Below are positions 1-61,469 of a stretch of 64,000 bases of DNA, piece after piece. Position numbers and translations under genes: made by a program. This DNA comes from Bordetella parapertussis (lineage in GTDB: Bacteria; Pseudomonadota; Gammaproteobacteria; Burkholderiales; SG8-41): assembly GCA_945906815.1 (NCBI GenBank), contig CAMDRT010000017.1, positions 1-64,000 on the forward strand, in the 5' to 3' direction. The notes under the pieces are model-generated. The model saw only the letters and a program-made list of their open reading frames with translations, searched no databases and had not been told where the DNA came from. The stretch's first letter is position 1, and each line of letters opens with the position of its first letter.

Positions 1-380
1 AGCGGCAGTTCGGCGGCGGGGTCGGCATGCATCAGGCTGCCGCCCACTGTGCCGCGATTGCGGGTCTGACTATGCCCCACCCACGCCAATGCCTGCGCAA
101 GCAGGGGCACGCGCGCCGCCAGCGCAGTGTCGCGTTCCATCACGCATTGCCGTGTGCAGGCGCCGGTGCGCGCCACGTGGGCCTCCAGCGCGACACATTT
201 AAGTGCGGCAATTTCATTGATATCGACGAGCTGACGCGGACGGCTGAGGCGCATCGCCATCATCGGCACCAGGCTCTGGCCGCCGGCAATCAGCTTGGCT
301 TCGTCGCCGTGCTGCCGCAACAGCGCACAGGCTTCGGCAACCGATGCGGCGCGTGCATATTCAAAAGGGGCTGCTTTCAA
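1..380 (-). CDS. Xanthine dehydrogenase-type FAD-binding subunit (CoxM family), 3' part outside window
   Basis: The first 127 residues of a molybdopterin-dehydrogenase FAD-binding subunit are present; the rest lies beyond base 1. The frame starts KAAPFEYARAASVAEACALL, has the FAD-binding stretch IAGGQSLVPMMAMR near residues 35-48, and reaches RNRGTVGGSLMHADPAAE at the window edge, the two hallmark FAD loops of this family. The only suitable start is a TTG at 380; no good Shine-Dalgarno is visible, so the start is uncertain. It lies 70 bases downstream of a Bug-family gene on the same strand and is probably cotranscribed with it. It would carry electrons from a [2Fe-2S] subunit/Mo subunit pair expected to the left. 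It is distinct from the coxM at 19221. Confidence 0.85.
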   Translation of the reverse strand, partial: MKAAPFEYARAASVAEACALLRQHGDEAKLIAGGQSLVPMMAMRLSRPRQLVDINEIAALKCVALEAHVARTGACTRQCVMERDTALAARVPLLAQALAWVGHSQTRNRGTVGGSLMHADPAAELP

Positions 381-9331: not shown

Positions 9332-10117
9332 ATGTCCACCGCTACCAGCGCTCCATCCACGGCACTTACATCGATAGCCGGCATCGAGCTCGACGTCCTG
9401 CGCCGGGGCGACGGCCCTCCGTTGCTGCTGTTACATGGCTTCCAGCCCATCGATCCCCGGCTGCCGCTGGTGGAGTTGCTCGCGCGCGATGCGCAGCTCA
9501 TCGCACCTTCCCATCCCGGATTCGGCGCTTCCCCGCGCCCCACGGATTTCGGCACGGTCTACGACCTTGTCCATCTTTATCTGGAATTTCTCGACACCCT
9601 GCCCCAAGGTCCAGTGACGCTGATGGGCCTTTCCTTCGGCGGCTGGCTGGCAGCCGAGATCGCGGTGAAAGCGGGGCGGCGCATCGAGCGTTTGATTCTG
9701 GTCGATGCGCTGGGCATCAAGGTGAGCGACCGCGAGACCGCGGACATCCTCGATGTGTTCAACACCCACCCGCAGGAAGTGATCCGTCATAGCTGGCACG
9801 CGCCGGACACCTACGCGCCCCGCTATGACGACATGGAGGACGACGAACTCATCACCCGCGCGCGCAACTGGGAGGCGCTGTGCCGCTACGGCTTTCACCC
9901 CTACATGTACAACCCGCAACTCAAGCGCTGGCTGGCAAGCATCAAGGCGCGCACGCTGGTGCTGTGGGGCGCTTCTGACGGCGTGGTGAAACCTGCCTAC
10001 GGCGAAGCCTACGCAAGACTGATACCCGGCGCACGCTTCGAGACCATCGCCGGCGCCGGACATCATCCCGAAATCGAACAGCCCGCGGCACTCGCCGCGC
10101 GCGTGCATGCCTTTTAG
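9332..10117 (+). CDS. Alpha/beta hydrolase
   Basis: 261 residues with the alpha/beta hydrolase fold: oxyanion-hole motif LLLLHGFQP, nucleophile elbow GLSFGGW with the catalytic Ser, acid residue in LVLWGASDGVVKP and His in IAGAGHHPEIE. No signal peptide, so cytoplasmic. AAGGAAC precedes the ATG by seven bases. It is the first gene of a four-gene operon with a flavin monooxygenase, another alpha/beta hydrolase and a MaoC-like dehydratase. It may hydrolyse an ester, lactone or C-C bond produced in that pathway; the substrate is unknown. Confidence 0.9.
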   Translation: MSTATSAPSTALTSIAGIELDVLRRGDGPPLLLLHGFQPIDPRLPLVELLARDAQLIAPSHPGFGASPRPTDFGTVYDLVHLYLEFLDTLPQGPVTLMGLSFGGWLAAEIAVKAGRRIERLILVDALGIKVSDRETADILDVFNTHPQEVIRHSWHAPDTYAPRYDDMEDDELITRARNWEALCRYGFHPYMYNPQLKRWLASIKARTLVLWGASDGVVKPAYGEAYARLIPGARFETIAGAGHHPEIEQPAALAARVHAF

Positions 10118-10143
10118 CAACCGTAGCCAGGACAGCGAACACC

Positions 10144-11358
10144 ATGGATATTTGGTATCAGTGCGAAATCCCCTATCCCCACGTCCCCCAGGATGTACTC
10201 GATCGCGCGCCCTCGGTGCGCGCGAGCCTGCCCAACCGTTATTGCGATCCCAAGGTTGCCGCCAACCTGTTCGAGGAGTGCATCGACGAATTCCTGTTAT
10301 GCGATGAGCGCGGGTTGAACGTGGTTGCGATCGAGCACCACGCCGGCATCAATTCGCTGCTGGCGGCGAACCCCATGCTGTTGGCGATCCTCGCGCGTCA
10401 GACCAGGAAGGCGCGCATCCTCAGTCTGGGAACGCTGGTCACGCTGCGCCCGGACCCGGTACGCATCGCCGAAGAGTACGCCACTGCCGACGTGATCAGT
10501 CGCGGGCGCCTGGACATCGGCTTTGTAAAATCCGGCGGCAGCGAGATGGCATCGAGCAATATGAGCGCGCTGGACAATGGCGAGCGCTACTGGGAGGCGA
10601 TTGATCTCATCTCCAAGGCGCTCACCCACCACGACGGCCCTTTCAGTTGGGAGGGCAAGCACTTTACCCACCGCCACGTGAATATCTGGCCACCCGCATT
10701 CCAGCAACCGCTGCCACGAATGTGGTCCGCCACCGGCGACGCTTCCACCTCCGCCGACGTGGGCCGGCGCGGCATGGTGCATGCGCTGGTGCTGCGTGGG
10801 CCCGAAGGGACGAAGGCTGCCTATACGGCTAACCGCCGCGCGCGCATCGAGGCCAACTTACCGGCCTCGACCACCGAGCGCTTTGCGTATGCGGCGATGG
10901 TGGCGGTGGGCGATACCGAAGAGGAGGGCATGCGTGTGGGCGAAAAACTGCTGTGGTTTCTCAACACCAGTCTTAGATCAGCGCCGCAGTACGGCAAGTT
11001 TCTGGCGGGCGGGGCACCGCCCGAGGCCGCGCCGATGATCTACCGCACCCGTCCCAGGGCCGACGCCAAGCCGCTGCCGGGTATGAGACCATCCGTCGGG
11101 AATGCCGCAGCGCTGATAGGCATCACGCCCGAAGCCGCGAAAGCGCAGGGTATTTTGTTCGCGGGCACACCGGACTCGGTGTACCAGCAGATCATGGATT
11201 TCTACAACTTTGTGGGCGGCTTTGGGCACTTGGTGATGATCGGCCGTTCGGGCTTCATGACCCACGAAGAAACCGAGAAAAGCATCAACCTCTTTGCGCG
11301 CGACGTGCTGCCGCGGCTACAGGCGATTACTCCGGTCATCGCAGGATTCAATCAATGA
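10144..11358 (+). CDS. LLM-class flavin-dependent oxidoreductase
   Basis: 404-residue luciferase-like monooxygenase family protein. Family features: N-terminal IWYQCEIPYP, AIEHHAGINSLLAANPMLLA (the glutamate/histidine flavin pocket), ILSLGTLVTLRPDPVRIAEEY and SRGRLDIGFVKSGG. These enzymes use reduced flavin from a separate reductase to insert oxygen. No reductase is encoded next to it. AGGACA lies 12 bases before the ATG. The gene is 26 bases after the first hydrolase and 7 bases before the second, so all are one transcript. The length and the WSATGDASTSADVGRRG segment suit the longer alkanal/limonene-type subgroup, but the substrate is not predictable. Confidence 0.9.
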   Translation: MDIWYQCEIPYPHVPQDVLDRAPSVRASLPNRYCDPKVAANLFEECIDEFLLCDERGLNVVAIEHHAGINSLLAANPMLLAILARQTRKARILSLGTLVTLRPDPVRIAEEYATADVISRGRLDIGFVKSGGSEMASSNMSALDNGERYWEAIDLISKALTHHDGPFSWEGKHFTHRHVNIWPPAFQQPLPRMWSATGDASTSADVGRRGMVHALVLRGPEGTKAAYTANRRARIEANLPASTTERFAYAAMVAVGDTEEEGMRVGEKLLWFLNTSLRSAPQYGKFLAGGAPPEAAPMIYRTRPRADAKPLPGMRPSVGNAAALIGITPEAAKAQGILFAGTPDSVYQQIMDFYNFVGGFGHLVMIGRSGFMTHEETEKSINLFARDVLPRLQAITPVIAGFNQ

Positions 11359-11365
11359 TTGCGCT

Positions 11366-12214
11366 ATGAGTCACGACGTCGAGAGCGCGACAGTGCAGCA
11401 GTTGGACGCCGAGGCGCGGCGTTCCGAGTCCGTGTGCGGCGACGGCAGCATGGTGTGGCGTGACTGGGGCGATGGGCCTGCCCTCGTCCTGCTCCACGGT
11501 GGGGCCGGCTCCTGGCAGCACTGGGTGCGCACTGTGCCGGCCTTCAGTTCCAGCCACCGCGTGCTCGCGCCCGATCTGCCGGGGCTCGGCGAGTCCGCGA
11601 ATCCGCCAGCGCCGCCGACGATGACGAGCATCGCCGCCATCGTGGCGGCGGGCATCGACGGGCTGCTGGGTGCGCAGGCATCCTACGATCTGGTCGGCTT
11701 TTCCTTTGGCGCCTCGGTGGGCGGGCACGTTGCGCTGTTGCACGGCGGGCGCGTGCGCTCGCTGACACTGCTCGGTGCGGGCGGGCTGGTGCGGCCGCGC
11801 ACGCCCATGACGCTCGAGCGTGTGCGCGACAAAATCGGCGAGGCGCGCATGCAGGCGCACCGTACCAACCTTCTGCGCAGCATGATTGCGGACCCGGCGC
11901 GGGTCGACGACCTCGCCCTCGCGATCCAGGACTGGAACGTGCACCACACGCGGCTGGACAGCCCGGCCCTGATCACGCTGCGGCCGCTCGCCGTGTCGCT
12001 GCCGCAGTTGCGCGTGCCGGTGAACGCGATCTGGGGAGAGCGCGACCAGATAGCCTACTATACGTTGGCAGAGCGGATCGCCGCGCTGCGCGTGCTGCGC
12101 CCGCAGATTGAACCGCATATCATTCCCTTGGCCGGCCACTGGGCCGCCTACGAGGCGCCCGGCGAATTTAACGCCACGCTCGCGACAGTGCTGCGCACGG
12201 CGGCGCTCGCATGA
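11366..12214 (+). CDS. Alpha/beta hydrolase
   Basis: 282 residues from the ATG at 11366 (the frame is open further upstream, inside the monooxygenase gene). Hydrolase motifs: LVLLHGGAGSWQHW (oxyanion hole, HGGAGSW as in C-C bond hydrolases), VGFSFGASVGG with nucleophile Ser, AIWGERDQIA with the acid and LAGHWAAYEAP with His. It resembles the MhpC/BphD-like group in the HGGAGSWQHW motif. It overlaps the following dehydratase gene by four bases (ATGA), so the two are translationally coupled. It is diverged from the first hydrolase of the operon and is probably not redundant with it. Confidence 0.9.
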   Translation: MSHDVESATVQQLDAEARRSESVCGDGSMVWRDWGDGPALVLLHGGAGSWQHWVRTVPAFSSSHRVLAPDLPGLGESANPPAPPTMTSIAAIVAAGIDGLLGAQASYDLVGFSFGASVGGHVALLHGGRVRSLTLLGAGGLVRPRTPMTLERVRDKIGEARMQAHRTNLLRSMIADPARVDDLALAIQDWNVHHTRLDSPALITLRPLAVSLPQLRVPVNAIWGERDQIAYYTLAERIAALRVLRPQIEPHIIPLAGHWAAYEAPGEFNATLATVLRTAALA

Positions 12215-13242
12215 ACGCAGGTAAGACGCCGCCGCACCCCATGTCGTCAGAGGTGCAAGAAAAGCTGTGGGACTACGATGCCGTGCAACCCGGCCAGGAC
12301 GGCTTTCCCACAGTCGTCACGCTGAGCGACGAGCACATCGCCGCTTACGCGCGGGTGGCGCAGAATCCTGATCCGCGCTTCCACGCCTCCGCGGCGAACC
12401 CGGCGTATGGCGGCGCGCTGATCGCGATGCCAACGATGGTGCTCACCTATGCGCCGCTGCTGCGCGACGAGATCGCCGAACGCCAGGGCTACCTCGCGCT
12501 GGAAGAGTCCACCACAGCGCGCCGTCAGACCCCGTTTGCCAAGTGCGAGATCCATTGGTTTCGTCCGGTGCGCGCCGGCGATACGCTCACCGGCACGCGC
12601 CGGGTTCTGGAGAAGTATGAGCGCCGGGGCAGCCGCTTTGTCACCTTCCGCGTCGAGGCCAGCAATCAGGCAGGCGAGCTGGTGGCCCGTTACGACTACA
12701 CCTGCATCTTCTCCTACGCCAAGGGCCAGCGTGATTTACCCCGTGAACTGGCGCAGCCGCAGCTGGCGGACGCTGCGGCGGCAGTGACCACAAACGTCAC
12801 AGGGCGCTGGCTCACCTTCGACGCCATCGCCGTCGGCGCGCCGTTGGCGCCGCTGGCGCTGGCGGAGAGCCAGGAGATTATGCTGCGCAAGAACGGACTG
12901 CGCCTGGCAGGCAAACCCAAGCCCAGCAACATTCACACCGACGAAGAATTTGCCCGGAAAAATATTTTTGCCGGCATGGTCAACTCCGGTCCAGCCACTT
13001 TGTCGTATGTCGATCAGATGCTGCAGCGCTCCTTCCCGCTACGCGCGTTCTACGACGGCGGCCGCTTGCTGATGCGGGCCATCACGCCTTTTCGCTCTGG
13101 CGACACGGTAACTTTCGCCGGCGAGGTGAGCGGCAAGCGGCAAGAAGACGGCAACAAGATAGTCGACTGCCGGGTGCGCGGCACCAACCAGCGCGGCGAG
13201 CTGGTGTGCCTGTGCGACGCTACGATGATGCTGCCGGCATGA
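12211..13242 (+). CDS. MaoC-like double-hotdog dehydratase
   Basis: 343-residue protein with two hotdog domains: an N-terminal FAS1-like dehydratase domain (residues about 20-165, VAQNPDPRFHASAANPAYGG) and a C-terminal domain (about 205-340, PSNIHTDEEFARKNIFAGMV). This layout is shared with mesaconyl-C4-CoA hydratase-like and HTD2-like enzymes. It likely hydrates or dehydrates an acyl-CoA or related thioester. As last gene of the operon with the monooxygenase and hydrolases it may act on the acyl product. Its stop at 13242 faces the convergent coxL1; the inverted repeat at 13299-13378 lies between. Confidence 0.8.
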   Translation: MNAGKTPPHPMSSEVQEKLWDYDAVQPGQDGFPTVVTLSDEHIAAYARVAQNPDPRFHASAANPAYGGALIAMPTMVLTYAPLLRDEIAERQGYLALEESTTARRQTPFAKCEIHWFRPVRAGDTLTGTRRVLEKYERRGSRFVTFRVEASNQAGELVARYDYTCIFSYAKGQRDLPRELAQPQLADAAAAVTTNVTGRWLTFDAIAVGAPLAPLALAESQEIMLRKNGLRLAGKPKPSNIHTDEEFARKNIFAGMVNSGPATLSYVDQMLQRSFPLRAFYDGGRLLMRAITPFRSGDTVTFAGEVSGKRQEDGNKIVDCRVRGTNQRGELVCLCDATMMLPA

Positions 13243-13298
13243 TTGCTGGTGCGCCATCATCATTGCGGTGCAGGGTTTGAGTGGCGAACTTCAAGACC

Positions 13299-13378
13299 AT
13301 TAACCGCGGAAAATACGGAACACACAGAAAAATTCCGCGCCCTTGTTGTTTCCGCGTATTCCGTGTGTTCCGTGGTTA
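13299..13378. terminator. Imperfect inverted repeat between convergent genes, likely bidirectional terminator
   Basis: Two arms of about 30 bases, each built from TTAACC-CGGAA and ACGGAACACAC-like units, face each other around a central segment, with several mismatches. The sequence family (accacggaacacacggaa) is a commonly seen dispersed hairpin in proteobacteria. It lies between the stops of the MaoC gene (plus) and coxL1 (minus), where a shared terminator is expected. Confidence 0.5.
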
Positions 13379-13420
13379 AAATCGCTTGATGTTGGGGTTA
13401 CTTCGGCACCTACAACTTCT

Positions 13421-13487
13421 GCATCTACTGCATCTACTGCATCTACTGCATCTACTGCATCTACTGCATCTACTGCATCTACTGCAT
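13421..13487. repeat. 9-bp tandem repeat, seven copies, made of Met-Gln-stop codons
   Basis: Seven perfect copies of GCATCTACT (13421-13483) plus a partial unit. On the minus strand the unit reads ATG CAG TAG, which is exactly the last two codons and stop of coxL1 (stop at 13479-13481). The array therefore starts in the coding end and expands into the 3' untranslated region, each unit carrying a stop in the coxL1 frame. Copy-number change would not alter the protein. It is a microsatellite-like array, not a CRISPR. Confidence 0.9.
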
Positions 13488-15839
13488 ACCGCGAATCGCG
13501 CGCCAGATGCGCTCGGGCGTTGCTGGCATTTCGATGTGCTTCACGCCAAATTCGGACAGTGCGTCCACCACCGCGTTGATCACTACGCCGAGTGCGGGTG
13601 TGGTACCGCCTTCGCCCGCCGGGCGCATGCCGAGCGGGTGCGTGGTGCACGGCACTTCGCTGATTGCGGTATCAAAGAACGGAAAGTGGTCGGCGCGCGG
13701 CATGGCGTAATCCATGAACGAACCGGTCAGCGGCTGTCCGCTGCGAGGGTCGTAATGACATTGTTCGAGCAGCGCCTGTCCCACGCCCTGGGCAATGCCG
13801 CCGTGCACCTGACCGTGAATAATCATCGGGTTCACCGCGCGCCCCACATCATCGACTGCCGAATATTTTACGATTTCCAGCGTTCCCAATGCGGGATCGA
13901 TTTCGACTTCGCACACATGACAGCCATAGGGAAAGCTTGCCAGCGTGAAGGTTTCATCCGAGAACGCGGCCAGTGGCCCGCGTAAATCTTCGGGTAAATC
14001 CGTGAGCTGCGTGGCAGCAGCCGCGATTTCGAACAAGCTGGCGGAGCGCTCTGCGCCCTCGGCACGGAAGCGGCCCTGCTCGAAGCGGACCACACTCGGG
14101 TCACATTCCATCAGGCGCGCGGCGATGCGCGTGCCTTTGGCGATAATCTGCTTCGCGCAATTCCAGATGACGACACTGCCCATGCGCATGCCACGACCGG
14201 AATGCGTGCCGCCGCCGACACTGACGATGTCGGTATCACCCGCGATGATTTGCACTTGCGCTATCGGTACGCCCAGCCATTCGTTGATCAGTTGCGCGAA
14301 GCTCGTCTCATGTCCCTGGCCGTTGGACACAATCCCGATCACGACCTGTATGTGGCCCGCGCCTTCGCCATCAGCATGCACGCTCACTTCGGCGCGTTCG
14401 CGCGGGATGCCGGTGGCGGTATCGACGTAATTGGCGATGCCGATACCGCGGCATTTGCCGCGTGTCCTGGCCTCGGCATGCCGCGCGGCAAAGCCCGCCC
14501 AATCACCCAGCGTGAGCGCTTTTTCCATCGCCGCTGGATAATCGCCGCTGTCGTAGAGCATGCCAAAGGGATTGGTGTAGGGTAGTTCCGCCGCGGTGAG
14601 CAGGTTGCGGCGCCGCAGTTCAACCCGCTCGAAGCCGAATTCCCGTGCGGCAATGTCGATCAGCCGCTCCATCACATACATGACTTCGGGCCGTCCGGCG
14701 CTGCGGTAGGGGCGGGTGATCATGGTGTTGCTTACCACCGCGCGCGCGCGAAAGTGCGCGGCAGGCACGCGATAGATGCTCGACATGATCTCGACGCCTT
14801 TTTTCAGCGGGCCATAATTCGTGGGGTGTGACCCCTGATTGCTGATGTTCGAGCCGCGCATGGCGAGAAACCTGCCGTCCTTATCGAGCGCCAGTTCCGC
14901 GCTCACCGCGAGATCGCGGCCCTGATAGTCGCTGACCAACGCTTCGCTGCGCTCAGCGGTCCATTTCACCGCACGTCCCACGCGCCGTGCCGCCCATGCC
15001 ACCAGCGCAAATTCGGGATAGATCATGCCGCGGGTGCCGAAGTTGCCGCCCACGTCGCCCATCACCACACGCACATTTTCGGTGGGCACATCGAGCATCA
15101 ACGCGAGATCTTGCTTCAGGCGCACCGCACCGCCACTGCCGGCATACAGGGTGTAGCGTTGCGTAGCCGCGTCAAAGTCACAAACAGCGGCACGCGGTTC
15201 CATCGGTACGCCGGTCACGCGCTGGATCCAGCTATCGAATTTCGCGATATGCGCGGCGCGGGCAAAGGCTGCCGCAGTGGCATCCTTGTCGCCGACATCG
15301 GCATCCAGAGACACGTTCGATGCCGCGTTTTCCCACAAGCGCGGCGCGTCCGCCTGCGCTGCTGCCAGTGTTGCTGTAATCGCGGGCAGTATCTGATAAT
15401 CGATCTCAACCTGTTCGGCCCCATCCTTCGCACTGTCGATAGTTTGTGCAATCACCATCGCCACCGCTTCACCGGCATAACGCACCTTGTCCAGGGCCAG
15501 CGCATAATGCGGCGCCTCAAAGCCTGCGAAGCCTTCGCGATTGACGAGTTGGGGTTCCGCAGGACTGGTGGATTGCGGCTTGTGCGGGAGGGGTTTCAAA
15601 CCGTCGGCGAGCATGTCCGTGCCGCTCAGGACTGCCAGCACGCCGGGTAGCGCCAGCGCCTTGCGGCTGTCGAGGGTACGGATATGCGCGTGCGCATGCG
15701 GCGAGCGCAGCATCACCGCATACACTTGCCGCGGCAGGTTCACATCGTCGCTGAAACAACCCCTGCCGGTGACCAGGCGCTGGTCTTCCTTGCGTCGTAC
15801 GGGTTGCCCGATACGCTCACTTTGTGCTGTCACTGACAT
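13479..15839 (-). CDS. Xanthine dehydrogenase-family molybdopterin-binding subunit (CoxL-like), copy 1
   Basis: Large catalytic subunit of a molybdenum hydroxylase, 786 residues. Motifs: substrate-domain start IGQPVRRKEDQRLVTGRG, GGNFGTRG near 264-271 (Mo-pterin region), PYRSAGRPE at 377-385, GQGHETSFAQ and near the end PAGEGGTTPALG with the catalytic Glu. Form I CO dehydrogenase has AYRCSFR at the 377 site, so this is not a CO dehydrogenase; even generic relatives usually have AYRGAGR. It is about four-fifths identical by eye to the copy at 16824-19205. Last gene of the operon; it starts 16 bases after the Bug gene. Its stop lies inside the 9-bp tandem array. Confidence 0.92.
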   Translation of the reverse strand: MSVTAQSERIGQPVRRKEDQRLVTGRGCFSDDVNLPRQVYAVMLRSPHAHAHIRTLDSRKALALPGVLAVLSGTDMLADGLKPLPHKPQSTSPAEPQLVNREGFAGFEAPHYALALDKVRYAGEAVAMVIAQTIDSAKDGAEQVEIDYQILPAITATLAAAQADAPRLWENAASNVSLDADVGDKDATAAAFARAAHIAKFDSWIQRVTGVPMEPRAAVCDFDAATQRYTLYAGSGGAVRLKQDLALMLDVPTENVRVVMGDVGGNFGTRGMIYPEFALVAWAARRVGRAVKWTAERSEALVSDYQGRDLAVSAELALDKDGRFLAMRGSNISNQGSHPTNYGPLKKGVEIMSSIYRVPAAHFRARAVVSNTMITRPYRSAGRPEVMYVMERLIDIAAREFGFERVELRRRNLLTAAELPYTNPFGMLYDSGDYPAAMEKALTLGDWAGFAARHAEARTRGKCRGIGIANYVDTATGIPRERAEVSVHADGEGAGHIQVVIGIVSNGQGHETSFAQLINEWLGVPIAQVQIIAGDTDIVSVGGGTHSGRGMRMGSVVIWNCAKQIIAKGTRIAARLMECDPSVVRFEQGRFRAEGAERSASLFEIAAAATQLTDLPEDLRGPLAAFSDETFTLASFPYGCHVCEVEIDPALGTLEIVKYSAVDDVGRAVNPMIIHGQVHGGIAQGVGQALLEQCHYDPRSGQPLTGSFMDYAMPRADHFPFFDTAISEVPCTTHPLGMRPAGEGGTTPALGVVINAVVDALSEFGVKHIEMPATPERIWRAIRGMQ

Positions 15840-15855
15840 TCAGCTTTGCTCCCAC

Positions 15856-16815
15856 TCAATCGAGTGCAACTTTAAAACCTTGGGTCACGATTTCCCATTT
15901 GGCGATTTCCGCTGTGATGTGTGCGGCAAATTCTTCCGGGGAATTGGCGATGGGCTGCGAGCCTGCGGCAACAAATTGTTGTGTGACCTTGGCAGTGCCT
16001 ATAGCTTTTACGAGGGCTGCGTGCAACGTCAAAATGACCTCGCGTGGTGTGGTGGCCGGTGCCAGCAAGCCCACCCATTGCGTAATTGCGTAGCCGGGCA
16101 GCGTTTCGGCGATCGCGGGCAGTTGCGGGAATAGTTTTGAGCGTTGTGCGCCGGTGGTGGCAATCGCGCGTAGCTTGCCGGCGCGGGATTGATGCACCAC
16201 GCTGGGCCCGCCGAAATAAATGCTTGTTTCGCCGCTCGCGGTCGCAATCACTGCGGGGCCGCCGCCCTTGTACGGCACGTGCACGATGTCGACCTGGGCG
16301 CGCTGTCTGAATAACTCCCCGGCCAGATGCGCCACCGACAGATTACCGGCAGAGGCAAAGGCGATTTGCCGCGGGCGGATTTTGGCGATGGCGATCAAGT
16401 CCGTTACGGTTTTCACCGGCATCGACGGATGGGTCACGAGCGCATAGTCGGCGGAGTCGATGAGGCTCACTGGCGCGAAATCCCTCACCGCATCGTACGG
16501 CAACTTCGCGCGGGTGGCGGGAAGAATTGCATTCGGTCCGGCGGTGCCGAGTAGCAGCGTGTAACCATCGGCTGCTGCCCGCGCCACCAGTTCGGTGCCG
16601 ATACGGCCGGTCGCGCCCGCGCGGTTCTCCACAACCATCTGCCAGCCCGCGGTCTCGGCCAGTGCCTGCGTCAGAATGCGCGCGCTCGCATCCGTTCCGC
16701 CGCCGGGCGGAAACGGCACGATCAGGCGTATCGGTTTGCTGGGGTAGGCCTGCGCCTGTGCGGTGAGGGTGCTGCTGATGAGCGCAAGACCGAGAATGCC
16801 AAAGGCGCCATGCAT
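15856..16815 (-). CDS. Bug/TctC-family substrate-binding protein within the molybdenum hydroxylase operon
   Basis: 319-residue Bug protein with a cleavable signal peptide (MHGAFGILGLALISSTLTAQ, then AYPSKPIRLIVPFPPGGGTD). DIVHVPYKGGGPAVI marks the ligand-loop region. It is wedged between two paralogous large subunits: 8 bases after coxL2 and 16 bases before coxL1. The tight spacing shows cotranscription, so the protein probably binds the substrate or product of the hydroxylase. Its signal peptide sends it to the periplasm, whereas the Mo enzyme has none and should be cytoplasmic. Confidence 0.92.
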   Translation of the reverse strand: MHGAFGILGLALISSTLTAQAQAYPSKPIRLIVPFPPGGGTDASARILTQALAETAGWQMVVENRAGATGRIGTELVARAAADGYTLLLGTAGPNAILPATRAKLPYDAVRDFAPVSLIDSADYALVTHPSMPVKTVTDLIAIAKIRPRQIAFASAGNLSVAHLAGELFRQRAQVDIVHVPYKGGGPAVIATASGETSIYFGGPSVVHQSRAGKLRAIATTGAQRSKLFPQLPAIAETLPGYAITQWVGLLAPATTPREVILTLHAALVKAIGTAKVTQQFVAAGSQPIANSPEEFAAHITAEIAKWEIVTQGFKVALD

Positions 16816-16823
16816 GTGACGCC

Positions 16824-19205
16824 CTACATCTTCTGCGACGGCATACCGTTAATCGCGCGCCAGATGCGCTCGGGCGTCGCTGGCATTTCGATGTGCTTCA
16901 CGCCATATTCGGACAGGGCGTCCACCACCGCATTGATCACCACGCCGAGTGCGGGCGTAGTGCCGCCTTCACCCGCCGGGCGCATGCCGAGTGGGTGTGT
17001 GGTGCACGGCACTTCGCTGATTTCGGTATCAAAGAACGGAAAGTTGTCGGCGCGCGGCATGGCGTAATCCATGAACGAACCGGTCAGCGGCTGTCCGCTG
17101 CGAGGGTCGTAATAACATTGTTCGAGCAGTGCCTGTCCCACGCCCTGGGCAATGCCGCCGTGCACCTGACCGTGAATAATCAGCGGGTTCACCGCGCGTC
17201 CTACATCATCCACCGCTGAATATTTCATGATCTCCAGCGTTCCCAATGCGGGATCTATTTCGACTTCGCACACATGGCAGCCGTAGGGGAAACTGGCCTC
17301 GTTGAAGGTCTCGTCACTGAAGGCTGCCAGCGGCCCGCGTAAATCCTCCGGCAGGTCATGCAATTGTGTGGCGGCAGCGGCGACCTCGAACAGGCTCGCC
17401 GAGCGTTCAGTGCCGCCCGCCTGAAAGCGGCCGTGCGCGAATTGAACATTGCTCGGATCGCACTCCAGCAGGCGCGCGGCGATGCGCGTGCCCTTGGCGA
17501 TAATCTGCTTCGCGGAATTCCAGATGACGACGCTGCCCATGCGCATGCCGCGGCCCGAGTGCGTGCCGCCGCCGACCCGCACGATATCGGTGTCACCGGT
17601 GATGAGCCGCACGCTGGTCATCGGCACGCCCAGCCATTCGTGCACCAGTTGCGCGAAACTGGTTTCGTGGCCCTGGCCGTTGGAGACCGTGCCGATAATC
17701 ACATCGACACGGCCCTCGCTTTCGCCACCTGCGTGCACCGTGATCTCTGCCCGCTCGCGCGGCGCGCCGGTGGCAGTGTCGACGTAATTCGCGATGCCGA
17801 TGCCGCGGCATTTGCCGCGCGTTTTTGCCTCGCTGCGGCGCCCGGCAAAACCCGTCCAATCACCGAGCTTGAGCACGCTGTTCATGGCGTCGTGGTAGTC
17901 GCCGCTGTCGTAGTGCATGCCGAAGGGATTGGTGTACGGCAGTTCGCTTGAAGCGAGCAGATTGCGGCGCCGCAGTTCGATGCGATCAAAGCCGAATTCC
18001 TGCGCGGCGATATCGATCAGCCGCTCCATTACGAACATCACTTCCGGTCGGCCCGAACTGCGATAGGGGCGCGTGGGTGTGGTGTTGCTCACCACCGCGC
18101 GCGCGCGAAAATTTGCGGCGGGTATGCGGTATATGCTCGACATGATCTCCACGCCTTTTTGCAGAGGCGTGAAACTGCCGGTGTGTCCGCCGGCGTTGCC
18201 GATGTTCGAGCCGCGCAGGGCAAGAAAATTTCCCGCGGCGTCGAGCGCCAATTCCGCGCTCACCGCCAGATCCCGCCCCTGAAAATCGCTGACGAAGGCC
18301 TCATGCCGCTCGCAGGTCCATTTCACCGGGCGTCCGATGCGCCGTGCCGCCCATGGCACCAGGGCGAACTCTGGATAGATCATGCCGCGGGTGCCGAAGT
18401 TGCCGCCCACGTCATCCATGGTGACGCGTACCTTGGCAGGTGGCACATCCAGTATCAGCGCGAGATCCAGTTTCAGACGCACCGAGCCGCCGCTGCCCGC
18501 ATGCAGGGTGTAGCGTTGGGTCGCGTTGTCATAGTCACCAACAGCAGCACGCGGCTCCATCGGTACGCCGGTCACGCGTTGCACCCAAGTCTCGAGTTTC
18601 GCGATATGCGCGGCGCGTGCAAAGGCCGCAGCCGTGGCCTCTCTGGCGCCGACGTCGGCATCGAGGCAGACGTTCGATGCTGCCTCGTCCCACAGCCGCG
18701 GCGCATCCGCCTGCGTCGCGGCGATGGTGCCAGTGACTGCGCGCAGCACCTCGTAGTCGACCTCAAGCTGTTCGGCGCCATCCTTCGCCAGATCCACGGT
18801 CCGCGCAATCACCACTGCCACCACTTCGCCGACGTAACGCACCTTGTCCAGCGCGATCGAATAACAGGGCGTTACAAAGGGCGGCGTGCCGTCGCTGTTG
18901 GTGAGGCGGATTTCCGCCGGATGCAGCGTGAAGGGATTGTACGGAATCTGCTTGAGCCCATCGGCGCGAAATTCCGCGCCGGTGAGCACCGCCAGCACGC
19001 CGGGCACTGCCAATGCTTTGCGGCTGTCGATGCTGCGAATGCGCGCGTGCGCGTGGGGCGAGCGCAGCATGACTGCATAAACCTGTTGCGGCAGGTTTAC
19101 GTCATCGCTGAAACGGCCGCGGCCGGTGAGCAGGCGGTGATCTTCCTTGCGCCGGACCGGTTCTCCGATGCGGCTGCTGTTGGCGACTAGAGACACAGTA
19201 GGCAC
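16824..19205 (-). CDS. Xanthine dehydrogenase-family molybdopterin-binding subunit (CoxL-like), copy 2
   Basis: 793-residue paralogue of the product of 13479-15839, with the same motifs: IGEPVRRKEDHRLLTGRG, GGNFGTRG, PYRSSGRPE in place of PYRSAGRPE, GQGHETSFAQ and PAGEGGTTPALG. The C-terminus ends GMPSQKM instead of GMQ. The last roughly 370 bases of the two genes are nearly identical, while their 5' ends differ much more. It follows coxM by 15 bases and precedes the Bug gene by 8, so it is probably the ancestral position after the small and medium subunits. Either copy could pair with the single coxS/coxM set. Confidence 0.92.
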   Translation of the reverse strand: MPTVSLVANSSRIGEPVRRKEDHRLLTGRGRFSDDVNLPQQVYAVMLRSPHAHARIRSIDSRKALAVPGVLAVLTGAEFRADGLKQIPYNPFTLHPAEIRLTNSDGTPPFVTPCYSIALDKVRYVGEVVAVVIARTVDLAKDGAEQLEVDYEVLRAVTGTIAATQADAPRLWDEAASNVCLDADVGAREATAAAFARAAHIAKLETWVQRVTGVPMEPRAAVGDYDNATQRYTLHAGSGGSVRLKLDLALILDVPPAKVRVTMDDVGGNFGTRGMIYPEFALVPWAARRIGRPVKWTCERHEAFVSDFQGRDLAVSAELALDAAGNFLALRGSNIGNAGGHTGSFTPLQKGVEIMSSIYRIPAANFRARAVVSNTTPTRPYRSSGRPEVMFVMERLIDIAAQEFGFDRIELRRRNLLASSELPYTNPFGMHYDSGDYHDAMNSVLKLGDWTGFAGRRSEAKTRGKCRGIGIANYVDTATGAPRERAEITVHAGGESEGRVDVIIGTVSNGQGHETSFAQLVHEWLGVPMTSVRLITGDTDIVRVGGGTHSGRGMRMGSVVIWNSAKQIIAKGTRIAARLLECDPSNVQFAHGRFQAGGTERSASLFEVAAAATQLHDLPEDLRGPLAAFSDETFNEASFPYGCHVCEVEIDPALGTLEIMKYSAVDDVGRAVNPLIIHGQVHGGIAQGVGQALLEQCYYDPRSGQPLTGSFMDYAMPRADNFPFFDTEISEVPCTTHPLGMRPAGEGGTTPALGVVINAVVDALSEYGVKHIEMPATPERIWRAINGMPSQKM

Positions 19206-20527: not shown

Positions 20528-20680
20528 TTACGCGTTCCTGTTTGCGGAGTAGATGTCAAACGCTTTGGCGGTGGCGCCTGCGGCAATCGCACCGTGTTGC
20601 GTATATTGGGACGGCGGCACAGCAGTGTCAACCGGATGGCGTGCGGCGGCACGCCATCGCAATGCCACGATAGTATCCAT
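20528..20680 (-). CDS. Possible 50-residue small ORF just upstream of coxS
   Basis: An ATG at 20680 opens a 50-codon frame ([15 protein letters not shown]... ending SANRNA) whose TAA stop lies two bases before the coxS ATG, the spacing of a coupled leader gene. I recognise no family, no good ribosome site precedes it, and the opposite strand is also open here. It may be chance, or the tail of a lost gene. If it is not a gene, 20526-20711 holds only the divergent promoters; a TTGACA with a TATACG about 20 bases on is seen on the minus strand within it. Confidence 0.25.
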
Positions 20681-20711
20681 GGGCGAACGGCTTTATCATC
20701 TGTCTGATGTC

Positions 20712-21722
20712 ATGCTTCGCTTGCGTCCCGTGGGATGGGTTGTGAAATTCGCGTATCGCATAGCCACTGCCGCCATGCTGATGCTGTTCGGTTCGCCGGT
20801 GGCCGCGCAAGCGGGCGCGGCGCCAGCCTATCCCGCCAAAAGTATTCGCCTGGTGCTGCCGTATCCGCCGGGGGCTGCCACGGATCTGCATGCGCGCGCG
20901 CTGGCACAGAAGATGAGCGAAAACCTCGGCCACGCGGTGATTGTCGACAATCGCGGTGGTGCCAATGGTGCGCTGGCCATGGCGCTCGTTGCGAAAAGCG
21001 CCGCCGACGGTTACACCCTGGTGTACGCGTTGCCGGCGCAGTTTGCCGTCAACCCGGCCCTGTATCCCAAACTTGCCTATAACCCGATTCGGGATTTCGA
21101 GCCGATCGCGCTGGTGGCGCGAACGCCGCTGGTGTTGTTTATGCATCCTTCGGTGCCGGTGAAATCGATCGGCGATTTGATCGGGCTGGCAAAGGCTAAG
21201 CCTGACTACCTGGTGCTGGCATCGGCAGGCAGCGGTTCTACCGGACACCTTTGTCTTGAGTTGTTCAAAAAACTATCGGCGACAAAAATTTTACATGTGC
21301 CTTACAAAGGCGCTGCGCCCTCGATGATCGATTTGATTGCCGGGCAGACGCAACTTTCTTTTCTTGCGTGGAGCACCGCCAGTGCCTTCGTCCACAGCGG
21401 CAAGCTGCGCGCACTGGGCGTGACCTCGGCAAAGCGGGCAGCGGTGTTACCCGATTTACCGGCAATTTCCGAAACCCTGGCGGGTTACGACATTGTGAAT
21501 TGGTATGCTATGGCAGGGCCAAAGGGTATGCAAAAACAAATACTTGCAAAGGTTCATGCGGACATACTGCGCGCCCTAGCAGCCGCCGATCTGCGTCAGG
21601 CTTTCGAGAAAGAGGGCATCGAAATCATCGGCAGTTCTCCGCAGGCGTTGGGCGACTACCTCAACAACGAGTTGGTGAAGTGGGGCGGTCTGGTGAAAAG
21701 CGCCGGTTTGAAAATCGACTGA
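20712..21722 (+). CDS. Bug/TctC-family substrate-binding protein
   Basis: 336 residues from the ATG at 20712, giving a normal signal peptide (VVKFAYRIATAAMLMLFGSP) before AYPAKSIRLVLPYPPGAATD. The frame is open back to 20553 and an ATG also occurs at 20679, but those would put a long non-signal extension in front; no start has a strong ribosome site. Ligand-loop motif ILHVPYKGAAPSMIDLIAG is present. It is divergent from the molybdenum hydroxylase operon, which already contains another Bug protein. Function is substrate capture in the periplasm; ligand unknown. Confidence 0.88.
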   Translation: MLRLRPVGWVVKFAYRIATAAMLMLFGSPVAAQAGAAPAYPAKSIRLVLPYPPGAATDLHARALAQKMSENLGHAVIVDNRGGANGALAMALVAKSAADGYTLVYALPAQFAVNPALYPKLAYNPIRDFEPIALVARTPLVLFMHPSVPVKSIGDLIGLAKAKPDYLVLASAGSGSTGHLCLELFKKLSATKILHVPYKGAAPSMIDLIAGQTQLSFLAWSTASAFVHSGKLRALGVTSAKRAAVLPDLPAISETLAGYDIVNWYAMAGPKGMQKQILAKVHADILRALAAADLRQAFEKEGIEIIGSSPQALGDYLNNELVKWGGLVKSAGLKID

Positions 21723-21760: not shown

Positions 21761-22438
21761 TTATTGCGGTGCTTTATCGCTGCCTGCGCTTTGCCGAAAC
21801 CAGGTGCGGATTTCGTTCAGCTTTTTTTCAAGGGATAAACCGGCCATCATATTGCGTGTGTGCAGCACCATCAGCGCGTTGATGCCGGCATCGTTCTGTG
21901 TCGCGCGTGTTATGCGTTTCGCGAACGCCTCGTTGAGCCTGTGGAAATCCGCGAAAAATCCAGTAAGCTCTTGCAGGCCGGGCGTGGTCCCGCGCAGATA
22001 GCAGTCGAAAAGATGCATGGTGGCTATGCGATACACCAGCTCGGTATCGGTGGTGAACGGCAGATGCATGCGCGCCAGGGGCCGCATACGGCTCAGTATC
22101 GGACAAGCGCTGGTGGCGAGGATAAGTCCCATCAGCGCACTCAGCGCGGTTTGGGTATCGGTGCGTTTATGCACTTCGTACTGCGCGTTGACGACGCGCA
22201 CCTCAACATTGTCATAGGAGGCCAGCGCGGAAAATCGCTTGAGCACTGGTACCAGGTCTGCCGCAGCCGGACAGCGTGCGCCAGGACTGCTGGCCAATGG
22301 GCAGTGCCCGCACTTATCGGTGTCGAGCAGTGTCCAGTCCGGCAACGCGCCGCCTGGCGCAGGACGCTCAAAATCGACGCCGAAGCGATGCTCTACTCCA
22401 GACTCAAGGCGGAAAAAATAGGTGATGGTATGGTTCAT
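21761..22438 (-). CDS. DUF6901-like protein
   Basis: 225 residues from the ATG at 22438, chosen because it gives MNHTITYFFRLESGVEHRFG, the usual start of this group; an ATG ten codons earlier is possible. Conserved features are a CGHCPL zinc-like or structural cysteine pair (residues about 43-47) with another Cys soon after (ARCPAAADL), and SALMGLILATSACPILSRMR with MARFHLP-like RMHLPFTTDTE. I recall this pattern from DUF6901 proteins, whose function is unknown. It is convergent with the Bug gene and lies 49 bases downstream of the MaoC hydratase on the same strand. Confidence 0.6.
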   Translation of the reverse strand: MNHTITYFFRLESGVEHRFGVDFERPAPGGALPDWTLLDTDKCGHCPLASSPGARCPAAADLVPVLKRFSALASYDNVEVRVVNAQYEVHKRTDTQTALSALMGLILATSACPILSRMRPLARMHLPFTTDTELVYRIATMHLFDCYLRGTTPGLQELTGFFADFHRLNEAFAKRITRATQNDAGINALMVLHTRNMMAGLSLEKKLNEIRTWFRQSAGSDKAPQ

Positions 22439-22487
22439 GAGGTGCCGGTGTCCCGCCCCGTGGCGCATGACCTGGTTGTCTATCTGT

Positions 22488-59756: not shown

Positions 59757-61469
59757 ATGTCCACCTACCGTCCTACCATCACCGGCGCACGTCACATGAT
59801 TTCGGCAGGCCACTATTCCGGCACGCACGCCGGTTTTCAGATACTGGAGGCCGGCGGCAACGCGATAGATGCGGGGGTCGCGGCGGGCATGGCGCTGAGT
59901 ATTTTGCAAACGGACCGGGTCAATTTCGCCGGCGTCGCGCCGATCATGATTTACCTTGCAGCCACGCGCGAAGTGCTCAACATCGATGGCCTCGGCACCT
60001 GGCCCAAAGCAGCATCCATCGATTATTTTCGCGAAAAACACGGCGGTAAAATGCCGCCCGGCATACTGCGCACGGTGATGCCGGCGGCACCGGCCGCGTG
60101 GATCATGGCGCTGGAACGCTACGGCACTATGCGCTTTGGTGAGGTCGCGCGCGAAGCGACGCGGCTTGCGCGTGAGGGCTTCGCCATGCATGGTTTCATG
60201 GCTGAATATATTTCAGATCACGTTGCAAGTTACCAGCGCTGGCCGTCGAGTGCGGCGGTGTTTTTGCCCCACGGCCGGCCGCCGCAGGTGGGCGAGCGCT
60301 TCGTGCAAACAGAGCTGTCCGCTTCGTTGCAATACATGATCGACGAGGAAGCCGCGCACAGCAGCAAGGGCCGCACGGCGGGCCTCAAGGCTGCGCGCGA
60401 CGCTTTTTACAAGGGTGACATTGCGCAAAAAATCGCGCGTTATCACCACGACAACGGCGGCTGGGTGACGGCGGATGACCTCGCTGACTACCAAGTCAGT
60501 TTTGAAACACCGGTGCATACGAATTTTCACGGCATTGAACTCTATGCCTGCGGGCCGTGGTCGCAGGGCCCGGTATTGCCGCAGACGTTGAACCTGCTGT
60601 CGGGCTTTGATTTGAAGGCGATGGGCCACAACTCAGCGGCGTATGTGCATACCCTCACCGAAGCGTTGAAGCTGTCGTTCGCCGACCGCCACCGTTATTA
60701 CGGCGATCCCAAATTCGTGAAGGTGCCGCTCGATGTGTTGTTGTCGCCGGCCTACGCTGCCGAACGCAGGAAGCTCATCCGCGCTGATGGGGCGGCGGCG
60801 GGCATGCCCGCCGCCGGTGATATTGCCGGTTACGCGCCGGCAACACCCTTGCCGGCGGCCACCCCAGGGGACGCAAATCCGCCGCCGGATACCTCGTACG
60901 TGTGCGTGGTGGATCGCCACGGCAACGCGTTTTCAGCCACGCCCAGCGACGGCTCCAGCGCCATGCCGGTAATCCCGGGCACGGGGCTGTGTCCCTCGTC
61001 GCGCGGCTCGCAGTCGTCGACCGACCCCGCACACCCCGCTGCGCTGGCACCGGGCAAGCGGCCGCGCCTGACGCCGAATCCGGCGCTGGCGTTAAAAGAC
61101 GGCAAGCTGTTCATGCCGTTTGGTTCGCCCGGCAATGACGTTCAGCCGCAGGCGATGACGCAGGTATTTCTCAATATGGTGGTGTTCGGCATGGAACCGC
61201 AAGCCGCGGTGGAAGCGCCACGCTTCGCGAGCTACAGTTATCCGAGTTCGTCCGCGCCGCACGATTATCATCCGGGGCAACTAAACCTCGAAGCGCGTTT
61301 TGATAAAGCGGTGACGGAAAAACTCGCGCAGCTGGGACACCAGATCGCGCCGTGGCAGGAGGTCGAATGGCGCGCTGGCGCGGTATGCGCGATACGCGTG
61401 AACGAGGAAAACGGATTACTGGAAGGGGCGGCCGATCCGCGACGCCCATGTTACGCCTTGGGCATCTGA
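59757..61469 (+). CDS. Gamma-glutamyltransferase-like Ntn hydrolase
   Basis: 570 residues. Gamma-glutamyltransferase fold: N-terminal ISAGHYSGTHAGFQILEAGG, a predicted autocleavage site PPPDTSYVCVVDRHGN with Thr379 as new N-terminal nucleophile, and GSPGNDVQPQAMTQVFLNMV. No signal peptide is visible, so it is probably cytoplasmic, unlike classical GGT. It may cleave gamma-glutamyl or other amide bonds. It follows the three dehydrogenase genes by 12 bases and likely belongs to their operon. Confidence 0.88.
   Translation: MSTYRPTITGARHMISAGHYSGTHAGFQILEAGGNAIDAGVAAGMALSILQTDRVNFAGVAPIMIYLAATREVLNIDGLGTWPKAASIDYFREKHGGKMPPGILRTVMPAAPAAWIMALERYGTMRFGEVAREATRLAREGFAMHGFMAEYISDHVASYQRWPSSAAVFLPHGRPPQVGERFVQTELSASLQYMIDEEAAHSSKGRTAGLKAARDAFYKGDIAQKIARYHHDNGGWVTADDLADYQVSFETPVHTNFHGIELYACGPWSQGPVLPQTLNLLSGFDLKAMGHNSAAYVHTLTEALKLSFADRHRYYGDPKFVKVPLDVLLSPAYAAERRKLIRADGAAAGMPAAGDIAGYAPATPLPAATPGDANPPPDTSYVCVVDRHGNAFSATPSDGSSAMPVIPGTGLCPSSRGSQSSTDPAHPAALAPGKRPRLTPNPALALKDGKLFMPFGSPGNDVQPQAMTQVFLNMVVFGMEPQAAVEAPRFASYSYPSSSAPHDYHPGQLNLEARFDKAVTEKLAQLGHQIAPWQEVEWRAGAVCAIRVNEENGLLEGAADPRRPCYALGI

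Follow-up and report, generated by a model that had tools for sequence, protein, structure and literature searches.

An operon for a molybdenum hydroxylase with two diverged large-subunit genes and a serine at the copper-ligand position of CO dehydrogenase

Molybdenum hydroxylases of the xanthine oxidase family add a water-derived hydroxyl group to an electron-poor carbon, and the electrons then pass from Mo through 2Fe-2S clusters to FAD. In form I CO dehydrogenase (CoxSML), a relative of these enzymes, the active-site loop of the large subunit CoxL carries a Cu-ligating cysteine, which we take to be Cys388. The stretch analysed here (the window; 64,000 nt of contig CAMDRT010000017.1, assembly GCA_945906815.1) belongs to the 4.77 Mb genome of an uncultured beta-proteobacterium (G000), and contains genes of this kind in the order coxS-coxM-coxL2-bug-coxL1. 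They form one tight run on the minus strand, from 20525 to 13479, with gaps of 36 bp (coxS/coxM), 15 bp (coxM/coxL2), 8 bp (coxL2/bug) and 16 bp (bug/coxL1), and all five carry one or more Pfam domains of the expected families that score above cut-off (Table 1). Coordinates, spacing and domains therefore agree with the gene order of the initial annotation. Its further statement, that both coxL genes depend on one coxS and one coxM, draws on the position of the genes, which suggests that CoxS and CoxM are common to CoxL1 and CoxL2 (hereafter L1 and L2; S and M for the small and medium subunits). With moderate confidence, we read the locus as encoding a molybdenum hydroxylase of the xanthine oxidase family that has two alternative catalytic subunits on one S/M module and is no CO dehydrogenase.

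The two large subunits had been described as near-identical, but they are alike in their tails only. The proteins share 79.5% identity (625/786 residues) and the genes 79.3%; third codon positions are 48–66% identical across the first 650 codons, and approximately the last 136 codons show 92–95% nucleotide identity, with a repeat (D1) of 300 nt at 94%. Sixty related genomes were searched, 20 stretches were taken, and trees were reconstructed from 23 coxL genes. In the tree of codons 21–640, all L1 genes fall into one clade (support 100/98), and a second clade (100/99) holds all L2 genes. In the tree of codons 650–780, L1 and L2 of G000 pair with each other (97/95), as do those of the related genome G003 (100/99), where a further stretch of likeness is found at codons 500–550. 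Approximately unbiased (AU) tests, with groups chosen after the trees had been seen, reject grouping by paralogue in the 3′ part (p-AU 9e-40 for L1, 1e-40 for L2) and grouping by genome in the 5′ part (4e-9 for G000, 5e-5 for G003). Between L1 and L2 of G000, the synonymous distance (dS) falls from 0.85 in the 5′ part to 0.21 in the 3′ part, and across four genomes the 5′ value ranges from 0.85 to 1.37. When G000 is compared with the sister species G004 and G012, dS between orthologues is 0.24–0.29 and 0.38–0.52 in these two parts, so the tails of G000, with their lower value, were homogenised after its split from these species. The ratio of nonsynonymous to synonymous change (dN/dS) in the same comparisons, L1 with L1 and L2 with L2, is 0.03–0.11, indicating that both genes are maintained under purifying selection. 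Because the tail groups by genome and the remainder by gene, the trees show L1 and L2 to be old paralogues with recurrent gene conversion of the C-terminal part.

Outside the tail, the differences between the two genes are concentrated. Ten positions are fixed differently between eight L1 and eight L2 genes (86, 89, 90, 305, 333, 337, 340, 341, 343 and 381; coxL1 numbering, as below unless stated), five of them within residues 333–343 and none in the last 400 residues. Clustering of five within 11 residues, a width chosen once the data were seen, was never reached when positions were drawn at random 20000 times from the 347 that vary. When agreement in seven of eight genes is sufficient, 21 positions differ, eight of which lie within 333–358. 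Residue 381 is in the active-site loop, and is Ala in L1 and Ser in L2 in all eight genomes. If an ungapped offset is assumed, positions 340, 343, 347 and 381 may correspond to Leu873, Ser876, Arg880 and Phe914 of bovine xanthine oxidase; on the same assumption, the substrate channel would include 340, 343 and 381. Residues 333–343 may lie close to the substrate, and the differences near the active site suggest that L1 and L2 act on different, probably related, substrates.

Domains and fold place the enzyme in the xanthine oxidase family. Both large subunits have Ald_Xan_dh_C, MoCoBD_1 and MoCoBD_2 domains above the Pfam cut-offs, and of the domains expected in the small and medium subunits (Fer2, Fer2_2, FAD_binding_5 and CO_deh_flav_C) only the last is just under its threshold. 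Glu743, which matches the catalytic glutamate that the family has near the C-terminus, is present in 49 of 50 rows of the Ser-bearing clade described below (the other has a gap) and in 119/119 rows outside it. An AlphaFold model of CoxL1 (mean predicted local distance difference test score 89.6) matches CO dehydrogenase large chains best (Z 40–48 over 752–754 residues) and bacterial xanthine dehydrogenase at Z 45 over 726 residues; it fits the family and adds nothing on the substrate. The glyceraldehyde dehydrogenase model NF041018 scores 537.3 (L1) and 535.6 bits (L2), below its cut-off of 790.

The active-site loops read as first described (Table 1), and were compared over 170 large-subunit rows sampled by likeness to the window genes, at least six of the 119 non-clade rows being second copies of G000 genes. 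With the clade limit at 52.5% identity or more to either window gene (51 rows) versus below (119 rows), Ser380 is found in 50/51 clade rows and 0/119 others, where the residue is Gly (110) or Ala (9). Pro377 occurs in 43/51 and 28/119 rows, respectively. Of the claimed departure from the usual AYRGAGR, the loop of form II putative CO dehydrogenases, the leading proline is therefore common outside the clade, and the change of Gly380 to Ser, shared by L1, L2 and the clade, is what sets it apart. In a quick tree, the 50 Ser rows come together in a single clade (Shimodaira–Hasegawa-like approximate likelihood ratio test 99). Fifteen positions are diagnostic for it (the residue is found in at least 95% of clade rows and in no more than 10% of the others), including 380 and, for example, T269, K347, H546 and R739. 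Judging from record titles, members occur in Beta- and Alphaproteobacteria; among 14 plasmid hits at 50–53% identity, the five rhizobial genes that were read have YRS. The phmmer alignment pairs Ser380 with the loop Cys of CoxL, and with Ser in place of the Cu-binding residue no Mo-Cu site is expected. In six different solved enzymes, the residue here is Cys in three CO dehydrogenases (8uem, 1ffu and 1n5w), Ala in 7dqx, and Gly in 1t3q and 1rm6. The suggestion of an unusual substrate is plausible given a distinct clade with 14 further diagnostic residues, and the case that would speak against it, the PYRS loop being common in enzymes of established substrate, was not seen within these six. No characterised enzyme was met among the 50 Ser rows, and two annotated members are labelled 'xanthine dehydrogenase family protein'. 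PYRSAGR and PYRSSGR gave no match in the literature library searched, a weak negative as papers seldom spell out sequences.

Genes neighbouring clade members point to a substrate class. An Amidohydro_2 gene with 2-amino-3-carboxymuconate 6-semialdehyde decarboxylase (ACMSD) as its best solved relative is present at 12 of the 20 clade loci that bear S and/or M (200-bit limit; in two of the 20, L129 and L052, the flank expected to hold the gene is truncated), at 1/26 other clade loci and at 0/54 control loci, with weaker hits in L069, L095 and L112. UbiD-type genes are near 9/46 clade loci (seven among the 26) versus 1/54 controls, and a decarboxylase gene of either type occurs at 20/46 clade loci, not all of which are independent (e.g., three rhizobial plasmids). 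The enzyme is probably a hydroxylase of (hetero)aromatic acids. Literature searches on molybdenum hydroxylases with TctC, and on picolinate with molybdopterin combined with further terms, found nothing.

In place of the ACMSD-like gene, the window, G004 and G012 have genes for a luciferase-like monooxygenase, for two alpha/beta hydrolases and for MaoC-type proteins beside the operon. Among the genomes examined, the luciferase-like orthologue adjoins coxL in these three only; in G001, G002 (as two pieces), G003, G006 and G007 it is on contigs without coxL, and 6/14 genomes of the genus have no match at E 1e-60. This weakens the case for the monooxygenase and hydrolases as a conserved partner set, since they are not tied to coxL across the genus. 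Genes of the same kinds in Neorhizobium are 26–37% identical to the window's over alignments of at least 200 residues. On two Neorhizobium plasmids (L182:2725-11370 and L183:4007-11364), a Ser-clade large-subunit gene has luciferase-like monooxygenase/hydrolase genes on one side and an enoyl-CoA hydratase gene on the other; a gentisate dioxygenase gene is nearby, and S and M were not detected within 9 kb.

In the arrangement we propose, CoxS (2Fe-2S) and CoxM (FAD) would form one electron-transfer module on which either CoxL2 or CoxL1 docks. Each CoxL would bind the Mo cofactor and, helped by Glu743, hydroxylate an electron-poor ring carbon, with electrons moving along the path usual for the family. 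Having arisen by an old duplication, L1 and L2 would now differ near the active site and probably accept different, related (hetero)aromatic acids, while recombination keeps their C-terminal parts alike; the Bug protein would be at most a periplasmic scout for the substrate of the cluster. A more specific version can be put forward tentatively: a combinatorial hydroxylase, in which selection diversified residues near the active site of two exchangeable catalytic subunits with different substrates, conversion kept common a C-terminal part that perhaps serves in docking, and Ser380, at the position of the Cu ligand of CO dehydrogenase, would give a Mo site of undescribed chemistry. The Ser380 clade is a sizeable group, with 50 rows in the present sample.

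The distribution of the genes among relatives bears on this arrangement. The complete S-M-L2-bug-L1 order is found in five genomes (G000, G003, G004, G012 and G018). S-M-L2-bug without an adjoining L1 occurs in G005 and G011, and L2-bug up to a contig end in G013; in these three, an L1-type gene is on another contig (G005) or about 7 kb (G011) and 10 kb (G013) from L2, each time in tandem with a further copy (cut by a contig end in G011). Only S-M-L1 is present in G001, G002 and G007, M-L1 at a contig start in G008 (assembly 62% complete), and an L1-type gene on a 4.4-kb contig in G006. A genus with S-M-L1-only relatives and others that have S-M-L2 without an adjoining L1 makes the idea of one chassis with several heads directly testable. 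A second tandem pair of large-subunit genes, of YRGAGRPD type, is located elsewhere in the window's genome (C5:40803-45522). It is adjoined by an Amidohydro_2-like match with one stop, no small- or medium-subunit gene was found on its contig, and similar tandem pairs are seen in several relatives.

Several observations weigh against two heads with different substrates on one module. The pair is not obligatory, as the five L1-only genomes and the three with a separated L1 demonstrate, and the L1-only genes have Ser381 as in L2 (5/5), so that 381 alone is no mark of L1. The L1/L2 pairs of G004, G012 and G018 are not resolved in the tree of codons 650–780, though the tails of G004 and G012 are alike, and homogenisation in G018 is weak. 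The clusters of the window, G004 and G012 have no ACMSD-like gene, and the rest of G000 offers a best match of only 34% identity. As given above, the gene is also rare at the 26 other clade loci, where UbiD-like genes are the more frequent; without a decarboxylase gene in its own cluster, the window borrows the substrate argument from relatives. Large subunits without detected S/M nearby are also common (45/54 control loci, or 20/25 of those with 5 kb on both sides, and 11/13 other clade members with 5 kb on both sides), when searched with profiles built from the Ser clade that could miss distant partners. Sharing of S and M may accordingly be widespread and ordinary, or L1 may use another module, and the lone large subunits raise the question of where their electron-transfer partners come from.

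The Bug gene was thought to be significant because of its place between the two copies, and one explanation makes its product a dedicated substrate scout for both enzymes. A Bug gene does lie directly 3′ of L2 in 8/8 L2-bearing genomes, and in the seven other than G000 it is 73–88% identical to that of the window, but it is between two L genes in only 5/8, so the expectation that it is always in the middle fails; the gene belongs with L2. There are at least 150 TctC/Bug genes in G000 (from 426 first-look candidates, bugM and bugD not being among the matches listed), and with so many, Bug neighbours are expected and their position says little. Some Bug gene is found at 19/20 S/M-bearing clade loci, the L2-linked one at only seven of them. 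The placement is thus mostly a matter of base rate, and a dedicated scout for both enzymes is doubtful.

It is rather unlikely that L1 and L2 are equivalent isoenzymes, kept for dose or regulation, with fixed differences due to neutral drift. One operon, one loop type, a homogenised C-terminal part and the five genomes with an L1-type gene alone would suit redundancy, but the paralogues are old, as their 5′ dS indicates, and have been kept as distinct clades in eight genomes, with fixed differences that cluster in 333–343 and include 381. An obligate mixed hexamer, (L1 M S)(L2 M S), is quite improbable: both L genes share an operon in five genomes and the common tail might be an interface, but L1 is separated from S-M-L2 or L2 in G005, G011 and G013, and is alone with S-M in G001, G002 and G007. 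Identity as a CO dehydrogenase is rejected, and oxidation of CO by a form II enzyme would be extremely improbable, for although CO dehydrogenase large chains are the closest to it among solved structures, in sequence as in fold, the loop has Ser380 in place of the Cu-ligand Cys of the form I motif AYXCSFR, scores are far below the curated cut-offs (TIGR02416, 469.7 for L1 and 463.6 for L2 versus 991.15 bits; NF040766, 499.1 and 505.4 versus 950 bits), and, according to a 2014 paper, no type II enzyme had been shown to be functional (PMC4053681).

The features of the locus are collected in Table 1. The N-terminus of bugM, by eye, looks like a Sec signal, and the true start of bugD is probably downstream of 20553; relatives of bugD adjoin coxS or a decarboxylase gene at related loci. 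The convergent genes possibly belong to one pathway with the coxL operon. A DUF6901 protein gene (21761-22468) stays beside the cluster in G004 and G012.

Table 1. Coordinates of genes and gene parts at the two-large-subunit locus of the window
Feature	Position	Strand	Basis
coxS-like small subunit, 2x[2Fe-2S], 157 aa	20052..20525	-	Fer2 and Fer2_2 above Pfam cut-off
coxM-like FAD subunit, 264 aa	19221..20015	-	FAD_binding_5 144.7 bits; CO_deh_flav_C 23.5 bits, under the 25.5 cut-off
coxL2, molybdopterin-binding large subunit, 793 aa, GTG start, loop PYRSSGR	16824..19205	-	Ald_Xan_dh_C, MoCoBD_1, MoCoBD_2; L2 clade
coxL2 active-site loop, P380-R386 (PYRSSGR), L2 numbering	18048..18068	-	Alignment
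coxL2 residues 336-346, counterpart of coxL1 333-343	18168..18200	-	Alignment
coxL2 3′ tract homogenised with coxL1; 5′ edge equally uncertain (50-codon windows)	16836..17246	-	
bugM, TctC/Bug periplasmic binding protein, 319 aa	15856..16815	-	PF03401 199 bits (cut-off 27)
coxL1, molybdopterin-binding large subunit, 786 aa, loop PYRSAGR	13479..15839	-	Ald_Xan_dh_C, MoCoBD_1, MoCoBD_2; L1 clade; AlphaFold model
coxL1 active-site loop, P377-R383 (PYRSAGR), S380 aligned to the Cu-ligating Cys of CoxL	14691..14711	-	Alignment
coxL1 residues 333-343, five of the ten fixed L1/L2 differences	14811..14843	-	Gene comparison
coxL1 3′ tract homogenised with coxL2, approximately the last 136 codons; 5′ edge from 50-codon windows	13479..13889	-	
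bugD, divergent TctC/Bug gene adjoining coxS	20553..21722	+	PF03401 218 bits
Convergent set: alpha/beta hydrolase, luciferase-like monooxygenase, alpha/beta hydrolase, FAS1_DH/MaoC protein	9332..13242	+	

Two kinds of repeat lie at or near the end of coxL1. Seven tandem 9-bp units (ATGCAGTAG on the coding strand) occupy 13425-13487, beginning in the last codons and stop of the gene; runs of three or more copies of this unit were not found in the loci of relatives (L118–L123). Between the maoC-like gene and coxL1 (13295-13385) is a dispersed imperfect palindrome with the half-site TTCCGTGTGTTCCGTGG, which occurs 63 times in G000 at up to one mismatch (0 for a reversed control pattern), often as inverted pairs about 45–60 bp apart, with several near contig starts. 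At the start of the contig, a second medium (FAD) subunit gene (3-368, minus strand) is cut and is part of another operon. Contig C24 has a matching remaining piece at its end (59874-60011), next to another small- and another large-subunit gene, so C24 and the window's contig (C17) are probably adjacent.

Compared with known systems, the picolinate pathway of Alcaligenes faecalis JQ135 has PicA and PicB hydroxylating the ring and then PicC, of the amidohydrolase family, decarboxylating (PMC10142695); the likeness is one of analogy, and the window differs in having no decarboxylase gene. Form II 'putative CODH' large subunits (AYRGAGR) share the superfamily and the Tyr-Arg-x-x-Gly-Arg loop, but the clade of the window has the Gly to Ser change at 380 together with the 14 other diagnostic residues, and identity among the rows compared is about 47% or less, save for one Gly row (L059, 53%). 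Quinoline 2-oxidoreductase (1t3q) and 6-hydroxypseudooxynicotine dehydrogenase (7dqx), which act as hydroxylases or dehydrogenases on N-heteroaromatics or related compounds, are alike in large-chain fold (Z 41 and 46), but have the loops GAYRGVGF and GAYRAPGR and are 31–32% identical to CoxL1. Form I CO dehydrogenase (Oligotropha carboxidovorans, 1n5w/1n60; Mycobacterium smegmatis, 8uem) resembles the window enzymes in its three subunits, large-chain fold and catalytic Glu; the window enzymes differ from it in having Ser380 for Cys and two diverged large subunits, at 31–36% identity by structural alignment.

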